Shown: piece after piece, positions 3,633 to 34,533 of the stretch
Numbering within the stretch: the first letter of the stretch is position 1
Layout of the letters: each line of letters begins with the position of its first letter
Origin: a virus
IMG/VR virus record: IMGVR_UViG_3300010151_000058
Location: 1-34,932 of that record
Reading direction: 5' to 3' (one strand)
Length of the DNA stretch: 34,932 bases
Notes under the pieces: generated by a model
Seen by the model: only the letters and a program-made list of their open reading frames with translations
Database searches by the model: none
What the model was told of the DNA's origin: nothing
Translations under genes and position numbers: made by a program

Positions 3633-3651
3633 CTAAGTACCACCCTTAGTA
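3633..3651 (+). promoter_or_regulatory. Putative phage RNA polymerase promoter, copy 2
   Basis: Exact CTAAGTACCACCCTTAGTA, followed by CAGAC, directly after a stop codon. A rho-independent terminator begins 8 bases downstream, before the next gene. It would drive the SSB/resolvase/lysozyme cluster. Basis: recurrence of the 19-mer at gene-module borders. Confidence 0.72.
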
Positions 3652-3658
3652 CAGACTA

Positions 3659-4510: not shown

Positions 4511-5173
4511 ATGTCAAATCAGAAGTACTTTAACACCCCTGTGGGTGTGGCTATCTGGCCCAAGCTGGTCGATGCCGACGAGAAGTTTAACAAGTGGGGC
4601 GTGAAGCTTGCCCTGCCAGTTGATGATGAAGCCACGCAGGATTTCATTGAGCTGATTGATAAGCTTGCTGCCGATGCCCTTGAGAATACTATCAAGGAGA
4701 AGAAGGCTGCAGGTTTCACACCAGCAAAGCTGAAGAAAATTGTTGCTGCTGACCTGCCTTACGAATACGAAGAGGACGACGACGGTGAGCCTACCGGTCG
4801 TGTGCTATTCAACTTCAGTAAGAAGTCAATCATCCAGCGCAAGGATAAGGAAGACATCATCTGTTCTCCCCCGGGCCTGTTTGATGCGGCTGGCAAGAAG
4901 ATTCCTGGTAAGCCACAGATTTGGGGTGGCTCAAAACTCATCGTTAACTTTGGCACCCGCGATTATTGGGTAGCCAAGATTGGTGCCGGTGTATCTCTGC
5001 AGCTCCGTGCTGTGCAGGTAATCGAGCTGGTCTCCGGTGGCGCAGCCACTGCTGAAGACTGCGGTTTCGAAGCACATGAAGGCGGCTACGTAGCTGACCA
5101 GACTGTTGCTGATGAAGCTCCGACTCCTGCAGCTGACACAGCTGATGAAGACAGCGACGACGAAGACTTCTAA
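4511..5173 (+). CDS. Single-stranded DNA-binding protein, T7 gp2.5 type
   Basis: 220 residues against 232 in T7. It coats single-stranded DNA at the fork and helps annealing and recombination. The N-terminal part has the OB-fold-like pattern of the family, beginning YFNTPVGVAIWPKL. The last 20 residues are very acidic and end in phenylalanine (DEDSDDEDF), the tail through which gp2.5 contacts polymerase and helicase. AGAGGAGAC precedes the ATG. It stands where gene 2.5 stands in T7, directly before the recombination nuclease and the lysozyme. The 3' end overlaps the next gene. Confidence 0.92.
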   Translation: MSNQKYFNTPVGVAIWPKLVDADEKFNKWGVKLALPVDDEATQDFIELIDKLAADALENTIKEKKAAGFTPAKLKKIVAADLPYEYEEDDDGEPTGRVLFNFSKKSIIQRKDKEDIICSPPGLFDAAGKKIPGKPQIWGGSKLIVNFGTRDYWVAKIGAGVSLQLRAVQVIELVSGGAATAEDCGFEAHEGGYVADQTVADEAPTPAADTADEDSDDEDF

Positions 5174-5567
5174 GCCTGTTGCTTGTTTCTGTATCAAAGT
5201 AAATCCTGTCCCAGCCTCGCGCCCCCGGGTGCGTCGTTGGGGTGGGGCTTACTACGGTAAGAAGTACACAGCATGGAGAGAAGAAGCCGCCGCATTCTTG
5301 GAAGAAAATTTTCAGCCAAAACTGCGACCCCAACGTCCCTACTTTGTAATCATCGACCACTATGTTCGACGACCTCGAACATCCACAGCAATCCTCCCTG
5401 TTGGTGACATCGACAACTACGACAAGGCTGCACTCGACGCAATCGTTAAGGCAGAGCTGATGGTAGATGACCGATGGATATCTAAGAAGTCATCCAACTT
5501 GGAGTTCGCAAGGAACGAAGACGAGGTAGGTACCTACATTAAATATTTTGAAGACGAGAGGTACTGA
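5145..5567 (+). CDS. rusA: RusA-type Holliday junction resolvase
   Basis: Predicted endonuclease that cuts four-way DNA junctions, here in the slot of T7 endonuclease I (gp3). RusA features, numbered from the ATG at 5145: PVPASRPRVRRWGGAYYGKKYTAW (in part) at the N-terminus, the acidic pair GDIDNYDKAALDAI near residues 87-100 (Asp88, Asp90), and a further acidic site VDDRW (Asp108/109), followed by a conserved strand. Length (140 aa) is near that of RusA (about 120). The start is uncertain: no start codon follows the SSB stop before the conserved region, so the gene must overlap SSB. 5145 is the shortest option, 5106 the longest; neither has a clear ribosome site. Confidence 0.85.
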   Translation: MKTATTKTSKPVACFCIKVNPVPASRPRVRRWGGAYYGKKYTAWREEAAAFLEENFQPKLRPQRPYFVIIDHYVRRPRTSTAILPVGDIDNYDKAALDAIVKAELMVDDRWISKKSSNLEFARNEDEVGTYIKYFEDERY

Positions 5568-6013
5568 TGTCTGTAAAGAAAATCGTCAGTGTTGATTACA
5601 TTGTAATCCACTGCGCTGCGACCAAGCCTTCAATGGATATTGGCGTAGAAGAGATTGACCGGTGGCACAGGCAGAGAGGATTCTTTGCAGTCGGCTACCA
5701 CAAAGTAATACGCAGAGATGGAACTATCGAAGACGGTAGAGCTATCGATGTACGTGGCGCACATGCCAAAGGTTTCAACTCACGTTCAATCGGTATCTGT
5801 TTAGCTGGTGGTGTCTCTCAGGAGAACGCTAACAAGGCAGAGAATAATTTCACCGATGCTCAGTTCGATTCTCTTAAATATCTTATTAAACATTTCACTA
5901 CCAAGTTTCCCAACGCTGAAGTCTTAGGTCACCGCGACCTGCCTAACGTGAACAAGGACTGTCCTTCGTTCGACGTACGCAAGTGGAGGGGTACAGGTAC
6001 ACCGGAGGTTTAA
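5567..6013 (+). CDS. N-acetylmuramoyl-L-alanine amidase, T7 lysozyme (gp3.5) type
   Basis: Zinc amidase that cuts the amide bond between MurNAc and the peptide in peptidoglycan. In T7 it also binds and inhibits the phage RNA polymerase. Zinc ligands are visible at His15 (VIHCAAT), His122 (LGHRD) and Cys132 (KDCPSFDV); the catalytic Tyr44 (GYHK) and Lys130 are also present, at nearly the T7 positions. Length 148 aa against 151. ATG overlaps the RusA stop (TGATG). It has no signal peptide, so as in T7 it needs a holin to reach the wall. Since the T7-type polymerase is present, the dual role is plausible but not shown. Confidence 0.94.
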   Translation: MSVKKIVSVDYIVIHCAATKPSMDIGVEEIDRWHRQRGFFAVGYHKVIRRDGTIEDGRAIDVRGAHAKGFNSRSIGICLAGGVSQENANKAENNFTDAQFDSLKYLIKHFTTKFPNAEVLGHRDLPNVNKDCPSFDVRKWRGTGTPEV

Positions 6014-6015
6014 CC

Positions 6016-6309
6016 ATGGACTTTATAAGGAACTACGGAATGGAAGAGAGAAAGTTCTCCCTGTTCAATACGCACCGCTGGTCTGACCCTAATGAAAGAC
6101 CGGAGTGTTGTGACGTAGTGCCTGTCCTAATGGAAGGCCGGTTCAGCACAGGTCTCATTGACGCAACCCTGTTGTGTCTTGAGATGGACGGAAGCAAAGC
6201 TGCCCCCGGGTTCATGAAGCCTGAAGGTATTGTTATCTATCACAGCCATTCGAACACCCTGTTCAAGAAGACCATTGAGAAAGATGAAGTACCCAAGGCA
6301 CTAGCCTAA
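6016..6309 (+). CDS. Hypothetical protein (97 aa)
   Basis: The ATG at 6016 is preceded by CCGGAGG at good spacing; the longer reading from 5983 would overlap the amidase without a ribosome site. The product is soluble, with an ECC pair near residue 31 and a histidine-containing strand (IVIYHSHSN) near residue 78. No family is recognised. Its stop codon lies inside promoter copy 3, so it ends the transcription unit that starts at 3633. Confidence 0.65.
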   Translation: MDFIRNYGMEERKFSLFNTHRWSDPNERPECCDVVPVLMEGRFSTGLIDATLLCLEMDGSKAAPGFMKPEGIVIYHSHSNTLFKKTIEKDEVPKALA

Positions 6310-6324
6310 CTACCACCCATAGTA
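6306..6324 (+). promoter_or_regulatory. Putative phage RNA polymerase promoter, copy 3 (variant)
   Basis: CTAACTACCACCCATAGTA differs from the consensus at positions 5 (G to C) and 14 (T to A). The two changes are not compensatory in the inverted repeat, which argues that the element is read as a linear promoter rather than as a hairpin or palindromic operator. It overlaps the preceding stop codon and is followed by a strong terminator 24 bases on. Confidence 0.65.
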
Positions 6325-6347
6325 CAAACAGAGTTCTTGTCTGGTTC

Positions 6348-6390: not shown

Positions 6391-6585
6391 ATGCACGGCA
6401 ATGCTGGAGCGTTAAAGAAGTTAACCCCTCCCTCAATCACAACCAACATGCGTGATGCGTTTCAACTGGCAGTCAATACCAGTGAGCGTAGTGCTGCTCG
6501 TGGACGAGTCATTCGTTCACTGCGGAGGAACCGTGGAGTAATCCACATGAAGCGCTGGACATTCTGGCGACGTAAGAAGCGTTGA
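6391..6585 (+). CDS. Small basic hypothetical protein (64 aa)
   Basis: The ATG at 6391 follows AGAGGAGATAAAC, a strong ribosome site right after the terminator; the frame upstream is open but lies in the terminator. The protein is very basic, especially at the C-terminus (MKRWTFWRRKKR), which suggests nucleic-acid or membrane-surface binding. No domain is recognised. The stop overlaps the TTG start of the next gene (TTGA). It is the first gene of the unit starting at 6306. Confidence 0.68.
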   Translation: MHGNAGALKKLTPPSITTNMRDAFQLAVNTSERSAARGRVIRSLRRNRGVIHMKRWTFWRRKKR

Positions 6586-7178
6586 GGGTATTAGTGGGAT
6601 GCGAGTTCTCCCAAGTAGTAACAAACGGATTCAGGAAGCGAGGCCATGATGCATGGTCGTGCGACACCCTACCTACAGAGGGAGACCCGAGGTACCACCT
6701 TCAATGTGATGTACGAGAAGTACTACATGATGGATGGGACTTAGCAATATTTCACCCTGACTGCAAACGACTTTGCAACGCAGGTGTTAGGTGGCTAACA
6801 ACAGAACCTAACCGTTTCATTGAGATGTATCAGGATGCACAGTTCTTCAAAGAATTACTGAACGCACCCATCGATAAAATTTGTATCGAAAACTCGAAGC
6901 CACATGGCTATGCCTTGGTAGCTATCAAACAGAAGTTCGACCAGATAGTTCAGCCATGGCAACACGGACACCCTGAATCAAAAGGTGTCTGCTTGTGGCT
7001 CAAGAATCTTTCACCACTGGAGGAAACCAACAACGTACGTGAGTACATGATGACGTTACCTAAGAAGGAACGTACTCGTGTCCACTACGCTGCGCCCGGG
7101 CCTGACCGGTGGAAAGAGAGAGCACGATTCTTCCCGGGTATTGCAGCCGCTATGGCTGAGCAATGGGGAGTCCTTTAA
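6582..7178 (+). CDS. DNA cytosine methyltransferase-like protein
   Basis: 198 residues of the phage family usually annotated as DNA (cytosine) methylase. The N-terminus VLVGCEFSQVVTNGF resembles SAM motif I of this group, followed by RGHDAWSCDTLPTEGDPRYH, CDVRE, and HPDCKRLCNAGVRWL near residues 58-72, where relatives have HPPC with the candidate catalytic cysteine. Here the second proline is Asp, but the cysteine is kept. Later landmarks are IENSKPHGY and the C-terminal ARFFPGIAAAMAEQW. It may modify phage DNA against restriction. The start is TTG (overlapping the previous stop) because the GTG at 6594 would delete motif I. Whether it is active is unknown. Confidence 0.75.
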   Translation: MRVLVGCEFSQVVTNGFRKRGHDAWSCDTLPTEGDPRYHLQCDVREVLHDGWDLAIFHPDCKRLCNAGVRWLTTEPNRFIEMYQDAQFFKELLNAPIDKICIENSKPHGYALVAIKQKFDQIVQPWQHGHPESKGVCLWLKNLSPLEETNNVREYMMTLPKKERTRVHYAAPGPDRWKERARFFPGIAAAMAEQWGVL

Positions 7179-13609: not shown

Positions 13610-14154
13610 TTGGTATAACCGGTCGAGCACGTACCGGTAAAGATACCTCAGCCAACTACTTGGTGCAGGCCTTTGGGTTCAAGCAGGTTTCATTCGCTGC
13701 CCCTCTTAAGGCTGCTGCAGCTATCATGCTGGGTATCACTGAAGACATGGTCAATGGCACAGGCTACGACCGTGAAGAAGTGAATCCTGATTGGGGTTTC
13801 TCAGTCAGAGAGTTCCTACAGAAGCTTGGCACCGAAGGATGCCGCGAAGCTTTCCGTGAGGACTTCTGGATTAACCGAGCACGTATTGAAGTCGAGAGCG
13901 CTACCGTACCGGTGGTTATCTCTGACGTACGCTTCGAGAATGAAGCTGAGTTCATACGTAAGAGCGGAGGAGTGCTGCTGCACATCCACCGTAACACTGG
14001 TCTGACGCATGCACACCGCTCAGAGCAGCCCCTGTACTTCGATGAGTTCGACGTAAACATCGATAACACAACTACTTACATGTCCCTGTACAACCAGCTG
14101 GATAACCTGATGATGCGTGGCTACTGCTTGGAACCACAAGGCGCACATGTCTAA
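13594..14154 (+). CDS. Deoxynucleoside monophosphate kinase-like protein
   Basis: 186 residues with a P-loop near the N-terminus (GITGRARTGKDT, residues 7-18). FAAPLKAAAA, SVREFLQKLGTEGCREAF and VISDVRFENEAEFI are blocks typical of phage dNMP kinases, which phosphorylate dNMPs to feed replication. The start is TTG at 13594 with AAGGAGGTTAAAC upstream, an excellent ribosome site placed in the end of the exonuclease gene. Its stop codon lies in promoter copy 4, so it closes the middle-gene unit. Confidence 0.85.
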   Translation: MDTPLIGITGRARTGKDTSANYLVQAFGFKQVSFAAPLKAAAAIMLGITEDMVNGTGYDREEVNPDWGFSVREFLQKLGTEGCREAFREDFWINRARIEVESATVPVVISDVRFENEAEFIRKSGGVLLHIHRNTGLTHAHRSEQPLYFDEFDVNIDNTTTYMSLYNQLDNLMMRGYCLEPQGAHV

Positions 14155-14169
14155 GTACCACCCTTAGTA
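14151..14169 (+). promoter_or_regulatory. Putative phage RNA polymerase promoter, copy 4 (late genes)
   Basis: Exact CTAAGTACCACCCTTAGTA followed by TAACC, overlapping the kinase stop codon. It is the only recognisable promoter upstream of the head and tail genes, so it probably drives the late block from 14244 onward. A large hairpin follows it. Confidence 0.72.
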
Positions 14170-14186
14170 TAACCCTCCTCTTTTTG

Positions 14187-28824: not shown

Positions 28825-30270
28825 ATGGCCCTCTCATTTGTTGATAACACTGGCGACAATTCCACTACGCTGTGGTCTGTCCCATTCTCGTTTCTCTCTC
28901 GTACTGACGTTGATGTCATAGACCTGAGTGACGACAGCGCGATAACCTTTACTTGGATATCGGACGCACAGATTTCAATAAGCCCTGCCGTACTAAGTTC
29001 AGTAACTTTTAGAATACGCAGGCAAACAACGCAGACTTCTCGAGTCGTTGACTTTCAGAATGCAACGAACTTGACTGAAGAGTCTCTAGATAACTCTGCG
29101 CTGCAATTGTTTTACTTGCTGCAGGAACAGATTGACACTAACGCCAATGCTGTTCAGGTACCTAACTCTTCCTTAACAGGAATGAGCTTACCTGCTCCTG
29201 TTGCTAATGAGTACATGAAGTGGAACTCCGGCGCTACTGCACTTGAAGGTGCGGCTCGAGAGAACGCACTTCTCTATGGAGCTGGCGCTCCTACCACTGA
29301 AGGTATCGATGGTGACTTTTATATTGATACTTCAGGTAACAACATACACGGCCCTAAGGCAACCACATGGCCTGCTGGTACTTCTATAGTTGGCCCAACC
29401 GGTGCCACCGGCCCGACAGGTGCGACAGGCGCAACTGGTGCTGCTGGTTCTGATGGTTCTGATGGTTCTGATGGTGCTGCTGGTTCTGATGGTTCTGATG
29501 GTTCTGATGGTTCTGATGGTTCTGATGGCGTATTCTCTGGAAGCGAAGCCACAGTAACGGCTGCTGCTGCTGATAAGGTAGCCATCTTAGATGCCGACGA
29601 TAGTGACAACCCTAAGTTTGCAGCACTATCAACTCTATTCACTTCAATAGCTGCAAAACTTAGTAGCTTACTGTTCACCGCAAATGGAACTGCAGGTGCT
29701 CCTGCTTGTGCTTTCGATAGCGATACCGACACTGGCCTGTACCGCATTGCGGCTAACCATTTAGGTTTCTCGACTGCTGGTAGTAAGGCATTAGAGATAA
29801 CTGCAGATGGAGAAGTCCTTGGAGCGCTGCAGCCGGGATTTGCGGCTTACGTTTCCAGCACCGTAAATAATGTCTCTGGTGATGGTACGTCATACACTGT
29901 CATATTTGACACCGAAGACCACGACATCGGTGGCGACTATAACAACGCAACCGGCGTATTCACTGCGCCTGTTGACGGGTATTACCTGTTATGTGCCAAG
30001 GTGTACGTGAACAGCATATCGTCAACCAACCACACTAACTTCTTTTCCACCCTCGTTACGACACAGGGTGACTTCGTCACTTATCTTGCCGACGACCACA
30101 CCTCAGGGGAAATGCCCGGGAGTGTGTCGCTGAAACACTCCGAGATTGTTTACTTGGACGCTGGCGATACGGCATCGGTAACACTCGAGGTGAATGGAAG
30201 CACTAAGGTTGTTGACCTCTTCGGTTCATCCAGCAGATACAACTCATTCTCAGGGAGGCTTTTAGTCTAA
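28825..30270 (+). CDS. Tail fiber protein, gp17-like, with collagen-like stalk and C1q-like tip
   Basis: 481 residues. The N-terminal about 150 residues are the T7 gp17-type tail-attachment domain (SFVDNTGDNSTTLWSVPFSF, then FRIRRQT and ALQLFYLLQEQID). Residues 190-235 are uninterrupted Gly-X-Y triplets (GPT, GAT, GAA, GSD), a collagen-like stalk. A DTGLYRIAANHLGFS-type segment follows near 307. The C-terminal 145 residues look like a trimeric C1q/TNF jelly-roll (FDTEDHDIGGDYNNATGVF, then APVDGYYLLCAKVYV), the likely receptor-binding tip. It recognises the cell surface in adsorption. Its stop overlaps the next ATG. Confidence 0.9.
   Translation: MALSFVDNTGDNSTTLWSVPFSFLSRTDVDVIDLSDDSAITFTWISDAQISISPAVLSSVTFRIRRQTTQTSRVVDFQNATNLTEESLDNSALQLFYLLQEQIDTNANAVQVPNSSLTGMSLPAPVANEYMKWNSGATALEGAARENALLYGAGAPTTEGIDGDFYIDTSGNNIHGPKATTWPAGTSIVGPTGATGPTGATGATGAAGSDGSDGSDGAAGSDGSDGSDGSDGSDGVFSGSEATVTAAAADKVAILDADDSDNPKFAALSTLFTSIAAKLSSLLFTANGTAGAPACAFDSDTDTGLYRIAANHLGFSTAGSKALEITADGEVLGALQPGFAAYVSSTVNNVSGDGTSYTVIFDTEDHDIGGDYNNATGVFTAPVDGYYLLCAKVYVNSISSTNHTNFFSTLVTTQGDFVTYLADDHTSGEMPGSVSLKHSEIVYLDAGDTASVTLEVNGSTKVVDLFGSSSRYNSFSGRLLV
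29392..29529 (+). repeat. Collagen-like coding repeat (Gly-X-Y), with 9-base unit GGTTCTGAT
   Basis: Fifteen Gly-X-Y triplets plus a final Gly. The second half is built of nearly identical 9-base units GGTTCTGAT (Gly-Ser-Asp), eight in all, in blocks of three and five separated by one GGTGCTGCT unit. Such identical units can slip during replication, so the stalk length may vary between isolates. Confidence 0.95.
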
Positions 30271-30731
30271 TGACATACACGAAATTACAGAAAGATGTTC
30301 TAGCTCATGGAGTCGTAGATGTTGAAGGCTATATCGCCACAACTGACGAGAAATTTGTACTCAGCAAAATCAAACGGTTAACTCCGCTCTATGAAGCAGA
30401 GAGCTTTCTTCCTGGTTATAAGACAGCCAAGGAGAAAAACGACGAGGCCTACGCCGCAGTGAAAGCCGCCTCGGATGCTGCCACTGAGATTAGACTATCA
30501 AACATTCCGTCAGCAGAATTCTTCGCAAGATTCACTAAGGACGAGTGGTTGAATATAAAAGCCGCTGCAGCTTCAGACGTTGAAGTGGATTACCTCCTGA
30601 CTCGCGTCATGGTGGCGAACCGAATCAACCTTAAGTCTCCTGACGTTAACGGCGGCGTTGATTACCTCGTCAGTAAAGGACTGCTTGCGGCGAATCGTAA
30701 AGCGGCAATTGTTTCATGGAACCTCTCTTAG
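30270..30731 (+). CDS. Hypothetical protein after tail fiber (153 aa)
   Basis: ATG overlaps the fiber stop, with GGGAGG 12-13 bases upstream. The protein is soluble and helical (AKEKNDEAYAAVKAASDAA) with a KDEWLNIKAAAASDVEVDYLL segment near residue 93 that looks like a compact domain. I do not recognise it. By position it could be a fiber chaperone or accessory protein, but no sequence feature proves this. Confidence 0.65.
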   Translation: MTYTKLQKDVLAHGVVDVEGYIATTDEKFVLSKIKRLTPLYEAESFLPGYKTAKEKNDEAYAAVKAASDAATEIRLSNIPSAEFFARFTKDEWLNIKAAAASDVEVDYLLTRVMVANRINLKSPDVNGGVDYLVSKGLLAANRKAAIVSWNLS

Positions 30732-31213
30732 TCCTCCTCTCAGGCGTATTCGGAAGACTCTCAGGTTATGTCGAGCCATACAAGATACCGGCCCCGTACT
30801 TATTGGGGCTGGTGTTTGGTCTTATCCTTGGTGCTCCTTGGTACTGGTTGCCAGCTTATGTTGCAGCTGGAGTGCTCGGGGAAGCTACTGCACCCGCACC
30901 CTTCTCACAGGGACTGTACTATGATGATTACCGAGGAGCAGATTGGCGTAAAAGCAAGTGGTGGGAAATTCGTTCTCTACCCTTCGTCAACATAACCAAC
31001 CGAGGCGTATGGAATGGTTTATTTTATCTACCTCTCTTTCCTATTACTCCTGCTGTACTGCTGCTTCCTCTTGCGTATTCTATTGGGTGGCCTGTCGGTG
31101 CAGTTGTAGGTAAACAATTCAAACACACTAAACTGAAGCAAGTCCTGAACTCTGAATTCTGGAGACAGGTTATCACTGCTTCACTCCTTCTAACTTTAAT
31201 CGGAATACTCTAA
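30716..31213 (+). CDS. Membrane protein of unknown function (165 aa)
   Basis: Overlaps the previous gene by 16 bases and ends in the TAATG overlap with the next. Hydrophobic segments are visible near residues 27-55 (YLLGLVFGLILG and YWLPAYVAAGVLG), 100-130 (WNGLFYLPLFPITPAVLLLPLAY, in part) and at the C-terminus (VITASLLLTLIGIL), suggesting three or four membrane spans. It lies in the lysis/packaging interval (T7 17.5-19). A holin or other envelope role is possible, but it is large for a holin and I recognise no family. Confidence 0.65.
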   Translation: MEPLLVLLSGVFGRLSGYVEPYKIPAPYLLGLVFGLILGAPWYWLPAYVAAGVLGEATAPAPFSQGLYYDDYRGADWRKSKWWEIRSLPFVNITNRGVWNGLFYLPLFPITPAVLLLPLAYSIGWPVGAVVGKQFKHTKLKQVLNSEFWRQVITASLLLTLIGIL

Positions 31214-31392
31214 TGCCTGATAACTTATCTGAAGAGGATATTGAACGGCTGGCTGACAAGATGTGGCGTGTAGCCCGTCACGATATGTACGTCAATGCCG
31301 GTAAAGGACTGTTCAGTCTCGCATGGAAAGGCTTGGTACTCGTCCTGATATATCTCTCGCTGAAGGGTATCTCCGGCGGGATATCATTCTAA
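31213..31392 (+). CDS. Small single-span membrane protein (59 aa), holin candidate
   Basis: The ATG overlaps the previous stop (TAATG) and the TAA overlaps the next ATG. The N-terminal half is charged and amphipathic (SEEDIERLADKMWRVARHD); one hydrophobic segment follows (LFSLAWKGLVLVLIYLSL), then a short GISGGISF tail. Size, single span and place directly after the fiber region match T7 gene 17.5 (holin, 67 aa, one span), but sequence identity to it is not evident. It may work together with the next gene. Confidence 0.62.
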   Translation: MPDNLSEEDIERLADKMWRVARHDMYVNAGKGLFSLAWKGLVLVLIYLSLKGISGGISF

Positions 31393-31820
31393 TGGTCGGC
31401 TTAATAGCAAAAGTATTAACTGGTGGAGTCATCCAAGGTGTTAAAGATTGGGTGATGTCCGAAGAAACTCGTAAAGCAAAACGAGAAGAGTCCGAAGACC
31501 GGATTCAAGAAGCGAAGGTAGTCGCACAGATTACCCGCATAGCAGATGGTGATACACAAGCTGCAACTATGGACGCTCTAAGCGTTGCTCAGCGTGGCTG
31601 GAAAGATGAATACCTACTGCTACTGGCAACCCTGCCAATGATAGCAAGCTTCATCCCACCCTTGGTACCTGCCATGGAAGAAGGTTTCCTGGTACTCGGC
31701 ACTTTGCCGCAGTGGTACATGTACGTACTGATTGGTGTCTACATAGATACCTTTGGTTTCCGACGCATCCTAAGGAACGTCTTGGAAGCCTATCTCAACA
31801 AGAGATTCGGTAATGGCTAA
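31392..31820 (+). CDS. Holin-like membrane protein (142 aa)
   Basis: I start it at the ATG at 31392, which overlaps the previous stop and follows GGCGGGAT; an in-frame start at 31323 lies within the previous gene. Residues 1-20 are mildly hydrophobic, 25-65 form a charged helix (SEETRKAKREESEDRIQEAK), and two membrane spans follow (YLLLLATLPMIASFIPPLV near 76 and WYMYVLIGVYIDTFGF near 109). The layout resembles the three-segment phage holins of the GTA type. It is probably part of the lysis set with the amidase at 5567. Confidence 0.6.
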   Translation: MVGLIAKVLTGGVIQGVKDWVMSEETRKAKREESEDRIQEAKVVAQITRIADGDTQAATMDALSVAQRGWKDEYLLLLATLPMIASFIPPLVPAMEEGFLVLGTLPQWYMYVLIGVYIDTFGFRRILRNVLEAYLNKRFGNG

Positions 31821-32058
31821 GGGTGCAGCGTCGGAAGGCGCACTTGCCGAACTCCATAAGATGTACGCAGACGAGCTGAAGAAAAGGTTACAAGACCCTG
31901 AGGCTCCTGCGTCACTCTTTAAAGAAGCACGAGAGTTTCTTAAGGATAACGGTATCGACTGTGAAGGTGCTGAGACTGAACATGTCTCAAACCTCGCAGA
32001 GGAAATTGTTGACAGTAAAGTCCTCCCCTTTCAAACCGGTAACGCAATGGAAGGATAA
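31813..32058 (+). CDS. terS: Small terminase subunit (gp18-like)
   Basis: 81 residues against 89 in T7. It recognises concatemeric phage DNA for packaging. The sequence LAELHKMYADELKKRLQDPEAP (in part), then LFKEAREFLKDNGIDCEG is the pattern found in small terminases of many T7-like phages. ATG overlaps the previous gene by 8 bases and its stop overlaps the next ATG. The SPFH gene separates it from the large subunit by one gene, the place of T7 18.5. Confidence 0.82.
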   Translation: MAKGAASEGALAELHKMYADELKKRLQDPEAPASLFKEAREFLKDNGIDCEGAETEHVSNLAEEIVDSKVLPFQTGNAMEG

Positions 32059-32573
32059 TGGGCTTCGAGAAACTCTTTGAGTATCTCGTATCCATAAAGG
32101 AGTGGTTCCACTTCATAGCCATAGTTGATGAGTACGAAAAGGCCATTGTCCTACAAATGGGCAAATACCGTCGCACTCTCGGCCCCGGCTGGTGGTTCCA
32201 CTGTCCTTTCGGTATAGACGATATCGCTACCGAATCAGTTGTACCTCAAACCCTCAACCTATCTACGCAGACATTAACCTCTGCAGACAAGCGTGAGGTC
32301 GTCCTTAGCGGAATCATAAAGTACACCATGCACGATATTAAGAAAGCTGTGCTGGGTGTAGATGATGCTGAGGAGATGCTTGGTGATGATGCCTTAGGTG
32401 TTATCAGTGAATACGTGGAAGAAGCTAACTGGTCAGAAGTGTGTACACCAGAGTTCTCCCGAAGATGTTTCAAGCGCATCAGGAAGGAAGCGTTCCGTTA
32501 CGGATTAAAGGTCTCATCCTTTCGCTTCTCCAACAAATCAACATCAAGGACATTCCGTCTTATAAATGACTAA
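32058..32573 (+). CDS. SPFH/Band 7 (stomatin/HflC-like) domain protein
   Basis: 171 residues. The segment IVDEYEKAIVLQMGKYRRTLGPGWWFHCPFGID (residues 22-54, in part) matches the start of SPFH domains (re-EKA-vv..G-k....-GPG-.f..P). VVPQTLNLSTQTLTSADKREVVLSGIIKYTMHDIKKAV (in part) is the next strand pair, and DALGVISEYVEEANWSEV fits its helix. The first 22 residues (FEYLVSIKEWFHFIA) are aromatic and hydrophobic and may form a membrane hairpin. It lacks the C-terminal coiled coil of bacterial relatives. SPFH proteins form membrane rings, such as HflK/HflC around FtsH. In T7 a spanin gene (18.5) occupies this place. Phage function unknown. Confidence 0.82.
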   Translation: MGFEKLFEYLVSIKEWFHFIAIVDEYEKAIVLQMGKYRRTLGPGWWFHCPFGIDDIATESVVPQTLNLSTQTLTSADKREVVLSGIIKYTMHDIKKAVLGVDDAEEMLGDDALGVISEYVEEANWSEVCTPEFSRRCFKRIRKEAFRYGLKVSSFRFSNKSTSRTFRLIND

Positions 32574-34266
32574 ACATTACGATGAAGCTTTGCTGAAGGC
32601 AGACTTCCGCAACTTCTTATATATCGTCTGGGAGTTCCTTGGTTTACCCGAACCCACTAAAGTCCAGTATGACATCGCTTACTACCTGCAATATGGGCCT
32701 AAGCGTTCAATCATCATGGGCTACCGTGGGGTAGGTAAATCCTGGATAACTGCCGCATTCGTATGTTGGTTACTTTACTGTAACCCGCAAACAAAGATTC
32801 TTGTTGTCTCAGCCTCCAAGGACAGGTCGGATAACTTCTCTATCTTTACGAAGAGATTGATTAATGACATGCCCCTGCTTAAAGGGCTGAGAGCAAAACA
32901 CGGTCAACGTGATTCGAACGTAGCTTTCGACGTTGGCCTTGCCAAACCTGACCATGCACCCTCAGTGAAATCTGTAGGTATCACCGGTCAGCTTACTGGT
33001 AGTCGTGCCGACGTTATCGTCGCTGATGACATTGAGGTTCCAAAGAACTCCCTGACGCAAACAATGCGTGACAGGTTGAGTGAAGCTGTTAAGGAATTCG
33101 ATGCCATCTTGAAACCTGATGACCACTGTGCCATCAAATACCTTGGTACACCTCAGACTGAAATGTCGGTGTACAACACGCTGGCTGAACGTGGATATGA
33201 AATCCGCATCTGGCCCACGAGGTATCCTAAGCCTAAGCAACAGTCTATGTATGGTGCCAAACTCGCACCTGTGATTGTGGACGCTCTCGCCTTAGACCCG
33301 TCACTCGCTGATTCGCCACACCATGAAAGGTATGGTCAGCCTGTAGACCCGGGTAGGTTTGATGAGAGAGACTTGCTCGACCGAGAGGCTTCTTATGGAC
33401 GCTCAGGTTTCGCCTTACAGTTCATGCTTGATACAACCATATCAGATGGTGACAGGTACCCATTGAAGCTCAGTGACTTGATTGTCATGGGCCTTAATGA
33501 TGACTTGGCTCCGATTAAGGTTGCATGGGGCAGCGGTACTGACCAAGTAATAAACAACCTCCCAACTGTAGGACTCGCTGGAGACAGACTACATGCACCC
33601 ATATTTGTACATGAAGACTTCAAGTCTTACGCGGGTAGTGTCATGTGGATTGACCCGTCTGGTCGCGGTAAAGATGAGACTGCATTTTGTGTTATCAAGA
33701 TGCTTAATGGCTTCCTTTATCTTAAGCGCATTGGTGGTTTTCTGTCTGGGTATGATGAGTCAACACTTACAGCTCTGGCTAAAATCGCTAAGGACAACAA
33801 AGTCAACTACATTGGAGTAGAGGATAACTTCGGTGACGGTATGTTCATCGAGCTGTTCAAGCCTTACCTCACCCGTACACACCCCTGCACTATCGAAGGC
33901 GATTCTGTACACGGCATGAAGGAAGCCCGAATCATTGACACCCTTGAACCCGTAATGAACCAACACAGGCTCGTTGTGGATGAGAAGGTATTCCGTGATG
34001 ACTTCCAGAATGCTCCCTCAGAGAAGTACCAGCTGTTCTATCAGATGACTAGGATGACCAAAGAGAAAGGTGCTCTTGGTCAGGACGATAGAATTGATGT
34101 ACTGGCTCAGGCAGTAGGTTACTGCATTGACCAGATGGACATCGATACGGACTCCATTGAGGGTCGCTGGGAAGAGGAAGAACGTGACAGGACGCTTCAG
34201 GAGTTCATGGATAACTGCTTCCCGGGACAGTACAACACTAATACCAATTGGCTGTCGAACTCTTAA
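32566..34266 (+). CDS. terL: Large terminase subunit, T7 gp19 type
   Basis: 566 residues against 586 in T7. Motor ATPase plus nuclease that packages concatemers. Walker A GYRGVGKS at 52-59, Walker B VIVADDIE near 150, motif III-type KYLGTPQ near 189. The RNase H-like nuclease has acidic residues in MWIDPSGRGKDET (Asp362), VEDNFGDG (near 419) and QDDRIDVLAQ (near 508). ATG overlaps the previous gene by 8 bases. It ends the main late transcription unit. Confidence 0.97.
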   Translation: MTKHYDEALLKADFRNFLYIVWEFLGLPEPTKVQYDIAYYLQYGPKRSIIMGYRGVGKSWITAAFVCWLLYCNPQTKILVVSASKDRSDNFSIFTKRLINDMPLLKGLRAKHGQRDSNVAFDVGLAKPDHAPSVKSVGITGQLTGSRADVIVADDIEVPKNSLTQTMRDRLSEAVKEFDAILKPDDHCAIKYLGTPQTEMSVYNTLAERGYEIRIWPTRYPKPKQQSMYGAKLAPVIVDALALDPSLADSPHHERYGQPVDPGRFDERDLLDREASYGRSGFALQFMLDTTISDGDRYPLKLSDLIVMGLNDDLAPIKVAWGSGTDQVINNLPTVGLAGDRLHAPIFVHEDFKSYAGSVMWIDPSGRGKDETAFCVIKMLNGFLYLKRIGGFLSGYDESTLTALAKIAKDNKVNYIGVEDNFGDGMFIELFKPYLTRTHPCTIEGDSVHGMKEARIIDTLEPVMNQHRLVVDEKVFRDDFQNAPSEKYQLFYQMTRMTKEKGALGQDDRIDVLAQAVGYCIDQMDIDTDSIEGRWEEEERDRTLQEFMDNCFPGQYNTNTNWLSNS

Positions 34267-34336: not shown

Positions 34337-34355
34337 CTAAGTACCACCCTTAGTA
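34337..34355 (+). promoter_or_regulatory. Putative phage RNA polymerase promoter, copy 5 (right end)
   Basis: Exact CTAAGTACCACCCTTAGTA followed by CAAAC, 70 bases after the large terminase gene. It would transcribe one or two tiny genes and then the non-coding right end. T7 has a promoter in the same place (phiOR) linked to replication and packaging of the right end. Confidence 0.7.
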
Positions 34356-34383
34356 CAAACCAACAATATTGAGGAGGTACTTA

Positions 34384-34533
34384 ATGTTCGCATTTACGAA
34401 GTACTATGATAGCCTCGCGGATATCATTGCTGAAGCCGATAGTCTGTTCGACAGGCTGTTTGGTATTCTTTCCTGGTTAGCGATAGGTTTGCTAATCATA
34501 TGGGGATTGACAGGAGCCATGGCTCAGCTATGA
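34384..34533 (+). CDS. Small single-span membrane protein (49 aa)
   Basis: TTGAGGAGGTACTTA lies before the ATG, one of the strongest ribosome sites in the window, 28 bases after promoter copy 5. The N-terminal half is soluble (AFTKYYDSLADIIAEADSLF) and the C-terminal half is one membrane span (LSWLAIGLLIIWGLTGAMA). T7 has gene 19.5 (49 aa) in this place, so it may be the equivalent. A holin or other lysis role is possible. The stop overlaps the ATG of a tiny frame (ATGA). Confidence 0.7.
   Translation: MFAFTKYYDSLADIIAEADSLFDRLFGILSWLAIGLLIIWGLTGAMAQL

Follow-up and report, generated by a model that had tools for sequence, protein, structure and literature searches.

A compact SPFH/Band 7 gene between the terminase genes of a T7-like podovirus has viral relatives located directly behind spanin genes

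The window, a 34,932-base virus record from IMG/VR, carries a T7-like podovirus with a single-subunit RNA polymerase, gp2.5, a primase-helicase, a DNA polymerase and an exonuclease, together with portal, scaffold, capsid, tail tube and tail proteins arranged in the T7 order. An open-reading frame for a compact SPFH/Band 7 protein is located between the two terminase genes, in the position of the T7 Rz/Rz1 spanin genes, and a first-pass annotation of this DNA had described both the gene and its slot correctly (Table 1). The gene is packed tightly into the late block, with its start falling inside the terS stop and its end overlapping the terL start, and it lies downstream of the structural genes and of a promoter-like repeat. 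The repeat, CTAAGTACCACCCTTAGTAyAAAC, is present in five plus-strand copies with 0-2 differences, each ahead of gene blocks, and these are almost certainly promoters for the phage RNA polymerase. The stretch recurs in contig L001 with 99.9% identity and an unchanged SPFH gene; one 9-nt gap distinguishes the two within the collagen-like GAT/GSD repeats of the tail fibre gene (29401-29535). A DNA methyltransferase gene (phrog_757) was also observed in the early region (6582-7178).

Besides the endolysin, the window encodes a holin candidate, proposed from hydropathy only and without a family match, and a phrog_2524 membrane protein that is retained in the nearest relatives, L003-L005. No convincing Rz/Rz1 pair was found in the window, and a lipobox scan for an o-spanin yielded nothing convincing. 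A weak o-spanin candidate (30768-30995), read in a second frame within 30716-31213, has a hydrophobic run with GTGC at its end, but it may be due to chance and was not accepted. Downstream of terL and directly after the last promoter-like repeat, a small open-reading frame (34369-34533; 54 aa from TTG or about 50 aa from ATG) encodes one strong transmembrane segment, and is possibly a separately driven membrane protein or pinholin.

Table 1 Features of the SPFH gene, its surroundings and related late regions (window coordinates unless a contig is named)
Feature	Coordinates	Strand	Evidence or remarks
Compact SPFH/Band 7 protein	32058..32573	+	ATG start, 171 aa, ~19.8 kDa; Pfam, model, six viral relatives
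N-terminal helix, aa 1-21	32058..32120	+	Hydropathy, hydrophobic moment, models, stomatin alignment
SPFH1 subdomain, about aa 22-57, motif GKYRRTLGPGWWFHCPFGIDD	32121..32228	+	Pfam, stomatin alignment, L089 model
SPFH2 subdomain, about aa 59-166	32232..32555	+	P0001 model, stomatin superposition
terS, T7 gp18-like terminase small subunit	31813..32058	+	PF11123 E 2.1e-16, phrog_891
terL, T7 gp19-like terminase large subunit	32566..34266	+	phrog_38 E 8e-116, PF22530
59-aa protein, one C-terminal hydrophobic segment, holin candidate	31213..31392	+	Hydropathy only
165-aa membrane protein, phrog_2524	31323..31820	+	E 2e-18; similar ORFs in L003-L005
Endolysin, T7 gp3.5-type amidase	5567..6013	+	phrog_822 E 6e-64
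Phage-RNA-polymerase promoter-like repeat heading the structural/late operon with the SPFH gene	14151..14174	+	
Promoter-like repeat copies	672-695, 3633-3656, 6306-6329, 14151-14174, 34337-34360	+	
Secreted HExxH (zinc-peptidase-like) proteins	L081:801-1337, L086:2-259, L087:4632-5138, L088:4660-5223		Late region with SPFH

Profile searches place the window protein in the SPFH superfamily, as had been supposed from its sequence. Residues 22-158 match Band_7 (PF01145) with an E-value of 7.9e-13 and 49.3 bits, against a curated cut-off of 23.6 bits, and all seven other compact members tested also score above this cut-off, while PHROGs gave no match to the window protein. A profile of the viral family searched against solved structures retrieved stomatin (E 2e-9), QmcA (4e-8), HflK (6e-7) and HflC (6e-5). 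The best NCBIfam model was HflK TIGR01933 (E 7e-11), at 42 bits far below its equivalog cut-off of 159.4, and HflC TIGR01932 likewise reached 20.5 bits against 134.4. Structure prediction, which the first-pass annotation had proposed as a check together with a comparison with HflC, agreed with the profiles, as the models fit stomatin, HflK and prohibitin structures. The AlphaFold model of the window protein (P0001) has a pLDDT of about 80-92 across most of residues 61-166, and its residues 59-165 superpose on the mouse stomatin SPFH domain with a VIA Z of 15.8 and an rmsd of 1.8 A over 106 residues. The N-terminal half of this model is of low confidence, and SPFH1 and the helix are therefore described mainly from the model of the L089 relative. 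There both are resolved, and 153 residues superpose on stomatin 43-200 at 2.2 A, with a TM-score of 0.79 (Foldseek). Across the models, Foldseek E-values ranged from 6.7e-7 to 1.1e-12 and VIA Z from 15.8 to 17.2 against stomatin SPFH domains, and stomatin ranked first in both the sequence and the Foldseek searches. The window open-reading frame is a true SPFH/Band 7 protein.

The protein consists of little beyond the SPFH domain itself. No more than about 6 residues separate its C terminus from the end of SPFH2, and there is no wall or cap helix and, as the first-pass annotation had said, no coiled coil. The same annotation had described an aromatic, membrane-type N-terminal segment, which holds in kind, but no 19-residue window of the protein reaches the threshold for a transmembrane helix (best Kyte-Doolittle value 1.0), and the segment appears too charged to cross the membrane. 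Instead, both AlphaFold models place a helix at residues 3-16/17, and by hydrophobic moment the N-terminal helix is significantly amphipathic in seven of the eight members, the window copy alone falling short at p 0.14. This helix aligns with H2 of stomatin, and the invariant W16 aligns with stomatin W51, a residue correspondence that is a reading of the alignment. Stomatin is held in the membrane by a pair of short helices, each half-inserted, and by a hydrophobic face of SPFH1; W51, in helix H2, acts as an anchor, and the stomatin cage is built with the wall helix and a C-terminal barrel (PMC12344292). The phage protein shares with stomatin (human STOM, Pyrococcus PH1511) the SPFH1-SPFH2 fold and, putatively, a monotopic-type N-terminal helix. 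It differs in having neither the H1 half of the hairpin nor the wall helix, cap helix and C-terminal barrel, and in being viral and late.

Other SPFH proteins are more distant in plan. Escherichia coli HflK and HflC have the same SPFH domain, but they are 419 and 334 residues long and have an N-terminal transmembrane helix, periplasmic SPFH domains and coiled coils (PMC12005517); the phage protein, with 171 residues, has no transmembrane helix and no coiled coil, and is predicted to lie on the opposite membrane face from the HflK/HflC SPFH domains. QmcA of the QmcA-YbbJ (SPFH-NfeD) system, next after stomatin in the profile search, shares the SPFH domain but has a coiled coil, and no NfeD partner gene was seen adjoining the phage gene. 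Nor does the protein resemble the products of T7 genes 18.5 and 18.7, whose slot it occupies: it is unrelated to them, with neither the transmembrane segment and periplasmic coiled coil of an i-spanin nor a lipoprotein signal or lipobox.

A search of 2.9 million viral contigs, using both individual sequences and progressively extended alignments, found six further IMG/VR contigs besides L001 that encode proteins of about 171-176 aa (L081, L086, L087, L088, L089 and L092); L090 and L096-L098 are the same contigs again and were not counted as extra relatives. The six are divergent, at 30-38% identity, and share 22 invariant columns with the window protein. For L089 and L092, the only measurable pair, 64 of 525 bases differ with a dN of 0.046 and a dS of 0.61 (dN/dS about 0.08), indicating purifying selection in this pair. 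The resemblance is not due to chance, given six divergent relatives, 22 shared invariant columns, Band_7 scores above the cut-off throughout and the low dN relative to dS. Among 84,980 prokaryote species genomes no relatives were found, so no recent host donor can be named. The window protein as query had no match in 50,697 phage records (INPHARED), and L081, L089 and L088 as queries produced weak, distant matches only. One of these, the 'prohibitin-like' protein of the T7-like podovirus ctgrD200 (MW202733; L093), is compact, as is the 'HflK' protein A0A6J7WFI0 of an uncultured Caudovirales phage; both have the same domain plan at about 173-187 aa and about 23-24% identity. No relatives turned up when the ctgrD200 copy was itself used as a query. 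MT836173 was rejected as a compact member, being a full-length SPFH protein of 363 aa, from an unverified faecal scaffold, that continues in a long C-terminal extension. HflK, YbbK or stomatin-like matches in short 'phage' records were excluded, as these records look like bacterial DNA.

The first-pass annotation had looked to conservation of the gene between terS and terL in related phages, and this expectation fails. In the nearest relatives, L003-L005, terS abuts terL; a TerL-based search found the same slot occupied by a Band_7 gene in one further record of 50 with a related TerL (L081), ruling out a conserved terS-terL gene; and of 70 loci at which TerS could be located, 53 have fewer than 300 nt from the TerS end to the start of the TerL match. 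Since it is not kept between terS and terL in relatives, the SPFH gene is an accessory gene. What recurs across the relatives is the late lysis/packaging end of the genome.

In four of the six relatives (L087, L088, L089 and L092), representing two lineages, the gene is directly behind an Rz/Rz1 spanin pair. In L089, lysozyme, a small transmembrane protein, a DUF7338-like protein, Rz and Rz1 are followed at a distance of 3 nt by SPFH, and L092 has a similar order without the DUF7338-like gene; Rz1 of L089 and L092 matches PF23793 LysC (1e-10 and 3e-11), and that of L089 also phrog_456. L087 and L088 carry, in this order, M15 endolysin, transmembrane protein, HExxH protein, tail gene, holin-like protein, Rz-like protein, lipoprotein and SPFH, the last 1-11 nt behind the lipoprotein gene. 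Here the L088 Rz-like protein matches phrog_739 (8e-5), and the Rz1 assignment in both contigs is by position and lipobox only. In these relatives the SPFH gene stands beside spanin genes and does not replace them. The suggestion in the first-pass annotation that the protein might act in lysis gains real support from these two lineages, although the window itself offers no convincing spanin pair to go with it.

The T7-like members (the window, L081, L086 and L093) have packaging genes rather than spanins as neighbours. In L081 and L086 the SPFH gene has a secreted HExxH protein ahead of it and TerL behind it. Homologues of the L081 upstream neighbours sit between terS and terL in L054, L056, L069 and L078, so by synteny the L081 gene is also within the terS-terL interval. 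The ctgrD200 gene adjoins TerL as in the window, but comes right after TerL rather than before. The gene just after SPFH in L086 is homologous to that after SPFH in L089 (38%), and because these two contigs share this further gene, the cassette seemingly travels as a whole between dissimilar phages. Since zinc proteases are known to partner SPFH proteins, it is conceivable that the SPFH protein and the secreted HExxH protein form a functional pair; between L081 and L087/L088 the HExxH proteins show a weak relationship, and none was found in the window. HExxH proteins similar to those in the SPFH contigs were also observed between terS and terL in L054, L056, L069 and L078. More generally, this interval is an accessory-gene slot in L051, L053, L054, L056, L061, L069, L072 and L078, containing zinc-ribbon proteins, secreted HExxH proteins, SprT-like peptidases and others.

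Our preferred reading, held at a probability of roughly 0.45, is that the gene encodes a minimal SPFH scaffold on the cytoplasmic face of the inner membrane that works late in infection with the lysis module. From the gene neighbourhood and the protein anatomy, we infer the membrane location and side, the oligomerisation and the action on lysis proteins. The bare SPFH1-SPFH2 unit would be expressed late as a monotopic protein, anchored in the manner of stomatin through its short amphipathic helix and the membrane face of SPFH1, and would probably form small rings or patches by contacts between SPFH domains, although the cage of stomatin makes use of a wall helix and a C-terminal barrel that the phage protein lacks. 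Together with the lysis module, such a scaffold might serve an end-of-infection membrane programme, in which holin or i-spanin molecules would be clustered or shielded, or the surrounding membrane altered, and could set the timing or efficiency of lysis by acting on the assembly or stability of holins and spanins. The spanin linkage comprises four contigs that reduce to two lineages, and accessory genes in general also tend to settle at the late end of podovirus genomes. Rather doubtful is the bolder proposal of a new class of lysis-cassette protein, in which a minimal, coil-less SPFH scaffold, encoded behind a spanin pair or in the spanin slot of T7-like phages, would organise complexes of holin or spanin within a microdomain of the inner membrane and set the time and place of the burst.

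Several other roles were weighed against a scaffold of the lysis module. The protein might antagonise host SPFH proteins or proteases, by joining or capping stomatin-type, QmcA or HflK/C assemblies or by touching FtsH. As a dominant negative, it would protect membrane proteins made late by the phage against degradation. Keeping the SPFH interface while losing the part that forms the cage wall is what would be expected of such an inhibitor, the similarity of the phage protein to HflK (TIGR01933, below the cut-off), QmcA and HflC is weak but real, and FtsH is a known phage target, at least in the case of lambda CIII (PMC1838920). The HflK/C SPFH domains, however, are periplasmic behind a transmembrane helix (PMC12005517), whereas the phage protein has neither transmembrane helix nor coiled coil and is expected on the cytoplasmic face, so that direct competition with host HflKC, raised in the first-pass annotation, becomes less likely. 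The gene is also in the late rather than the early takeover region, where the T7-like phage Pasto carries a longer, transmembrane-bearing SPFH gene, and overall we consider an antagonist unlikely. A late membrane guard, providing superinfection exclusion, defence against a second phage or PspA-like relief of membrane stress before lysis, would fit the sporadic, mobile distribution of a moron-type gene and the link between stomatin-family proteins and membrane stiffening (PMC12344292). Against this, overlapping ends lock the SPFH gene into the late block. Genes of this kind are usually early or under their own promoter, and we regard this role as quite unlikely.

Distinctly improbable, in our judgement, is a packaging or virion component that aids the terminase or tethers it, or procapsids, to the membrane. 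The overlap with both terminase genes in the window, the position before TerL in L081 and L086 and after TerL in ctgrD200, and the detection of SPFH proteins by mass spectrometry in RaK2-like and Vi01-like phage preparations (PMC7760394, PMC10892097) are consistent with such a role. The L087, L088, L089 and L092 copies, however, sit with spanins and adjoin no terminase gene, the nearest TerL relatives do without the SPFH gene, and the 28-kb L087 record has no Terminase_6N match, with a model that scores T7-type TerLs weakly. A passive passenger without function would account for the rare and patchy presence, but this reading, which we consider very improbable, is already disfavoured by the dN/dS of the one pair, the invariant columns maintained at such low identity and the confident fold.

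Phage SPFH genes were known before, having been listed in the T4-like phages 44RR, Aeh1 and RB43 in 2006 (PMC1524935) and reported in RaK2-like phages, where their function was called poorly understood (PMC7760394), in Vi01-like phages (PMC3220722, PMC10892097), in GIB1 (PMC13239085) and in CSP3 (PMC10269572). These long phage Band 7 proteins, among which N4 gp20 and Pasto gp011 are also counted, have about 263-285 aa where the length is known, against 171 aa here. The claim of the first-pass annotation that no function had been described for such a gene in T7-like phages stands insofar as none has been assigned, but an SPFH gene was already annotated in a T7-like phage: Rhizobium phage Pasto gp011, 'similar to N4 gp20' according to its depositors, which unlike the window protein has one transmembrane helix and lies in the early region. 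Another Rhizobium phage, RHEph10 (L094), has a full-length prohibitin-family gene (4923-5777) among nucleotide-metabolism genes, a setting unlike that of the window gene, and close to the rIIA and rIIB lysis-inhibition genes. No earlier report of a compact or lysis-cassette phage SPFH protein was found, and this form is new in the literature searched, which leaves out most subscription journals.

What bacterial SPFH proteins do, beyond shaping membrane microdomains, is for the most part unclear, and the phage copies on record since 2006 have been given no function. A natural 171-aa SPFH1-SPFH2 unit without a coiled coil is a clean tool for asking what the domain alone does, and the spanin linkage in its relatives provides a direct, testable tie between SPFH membrane organisation and phage lysis.
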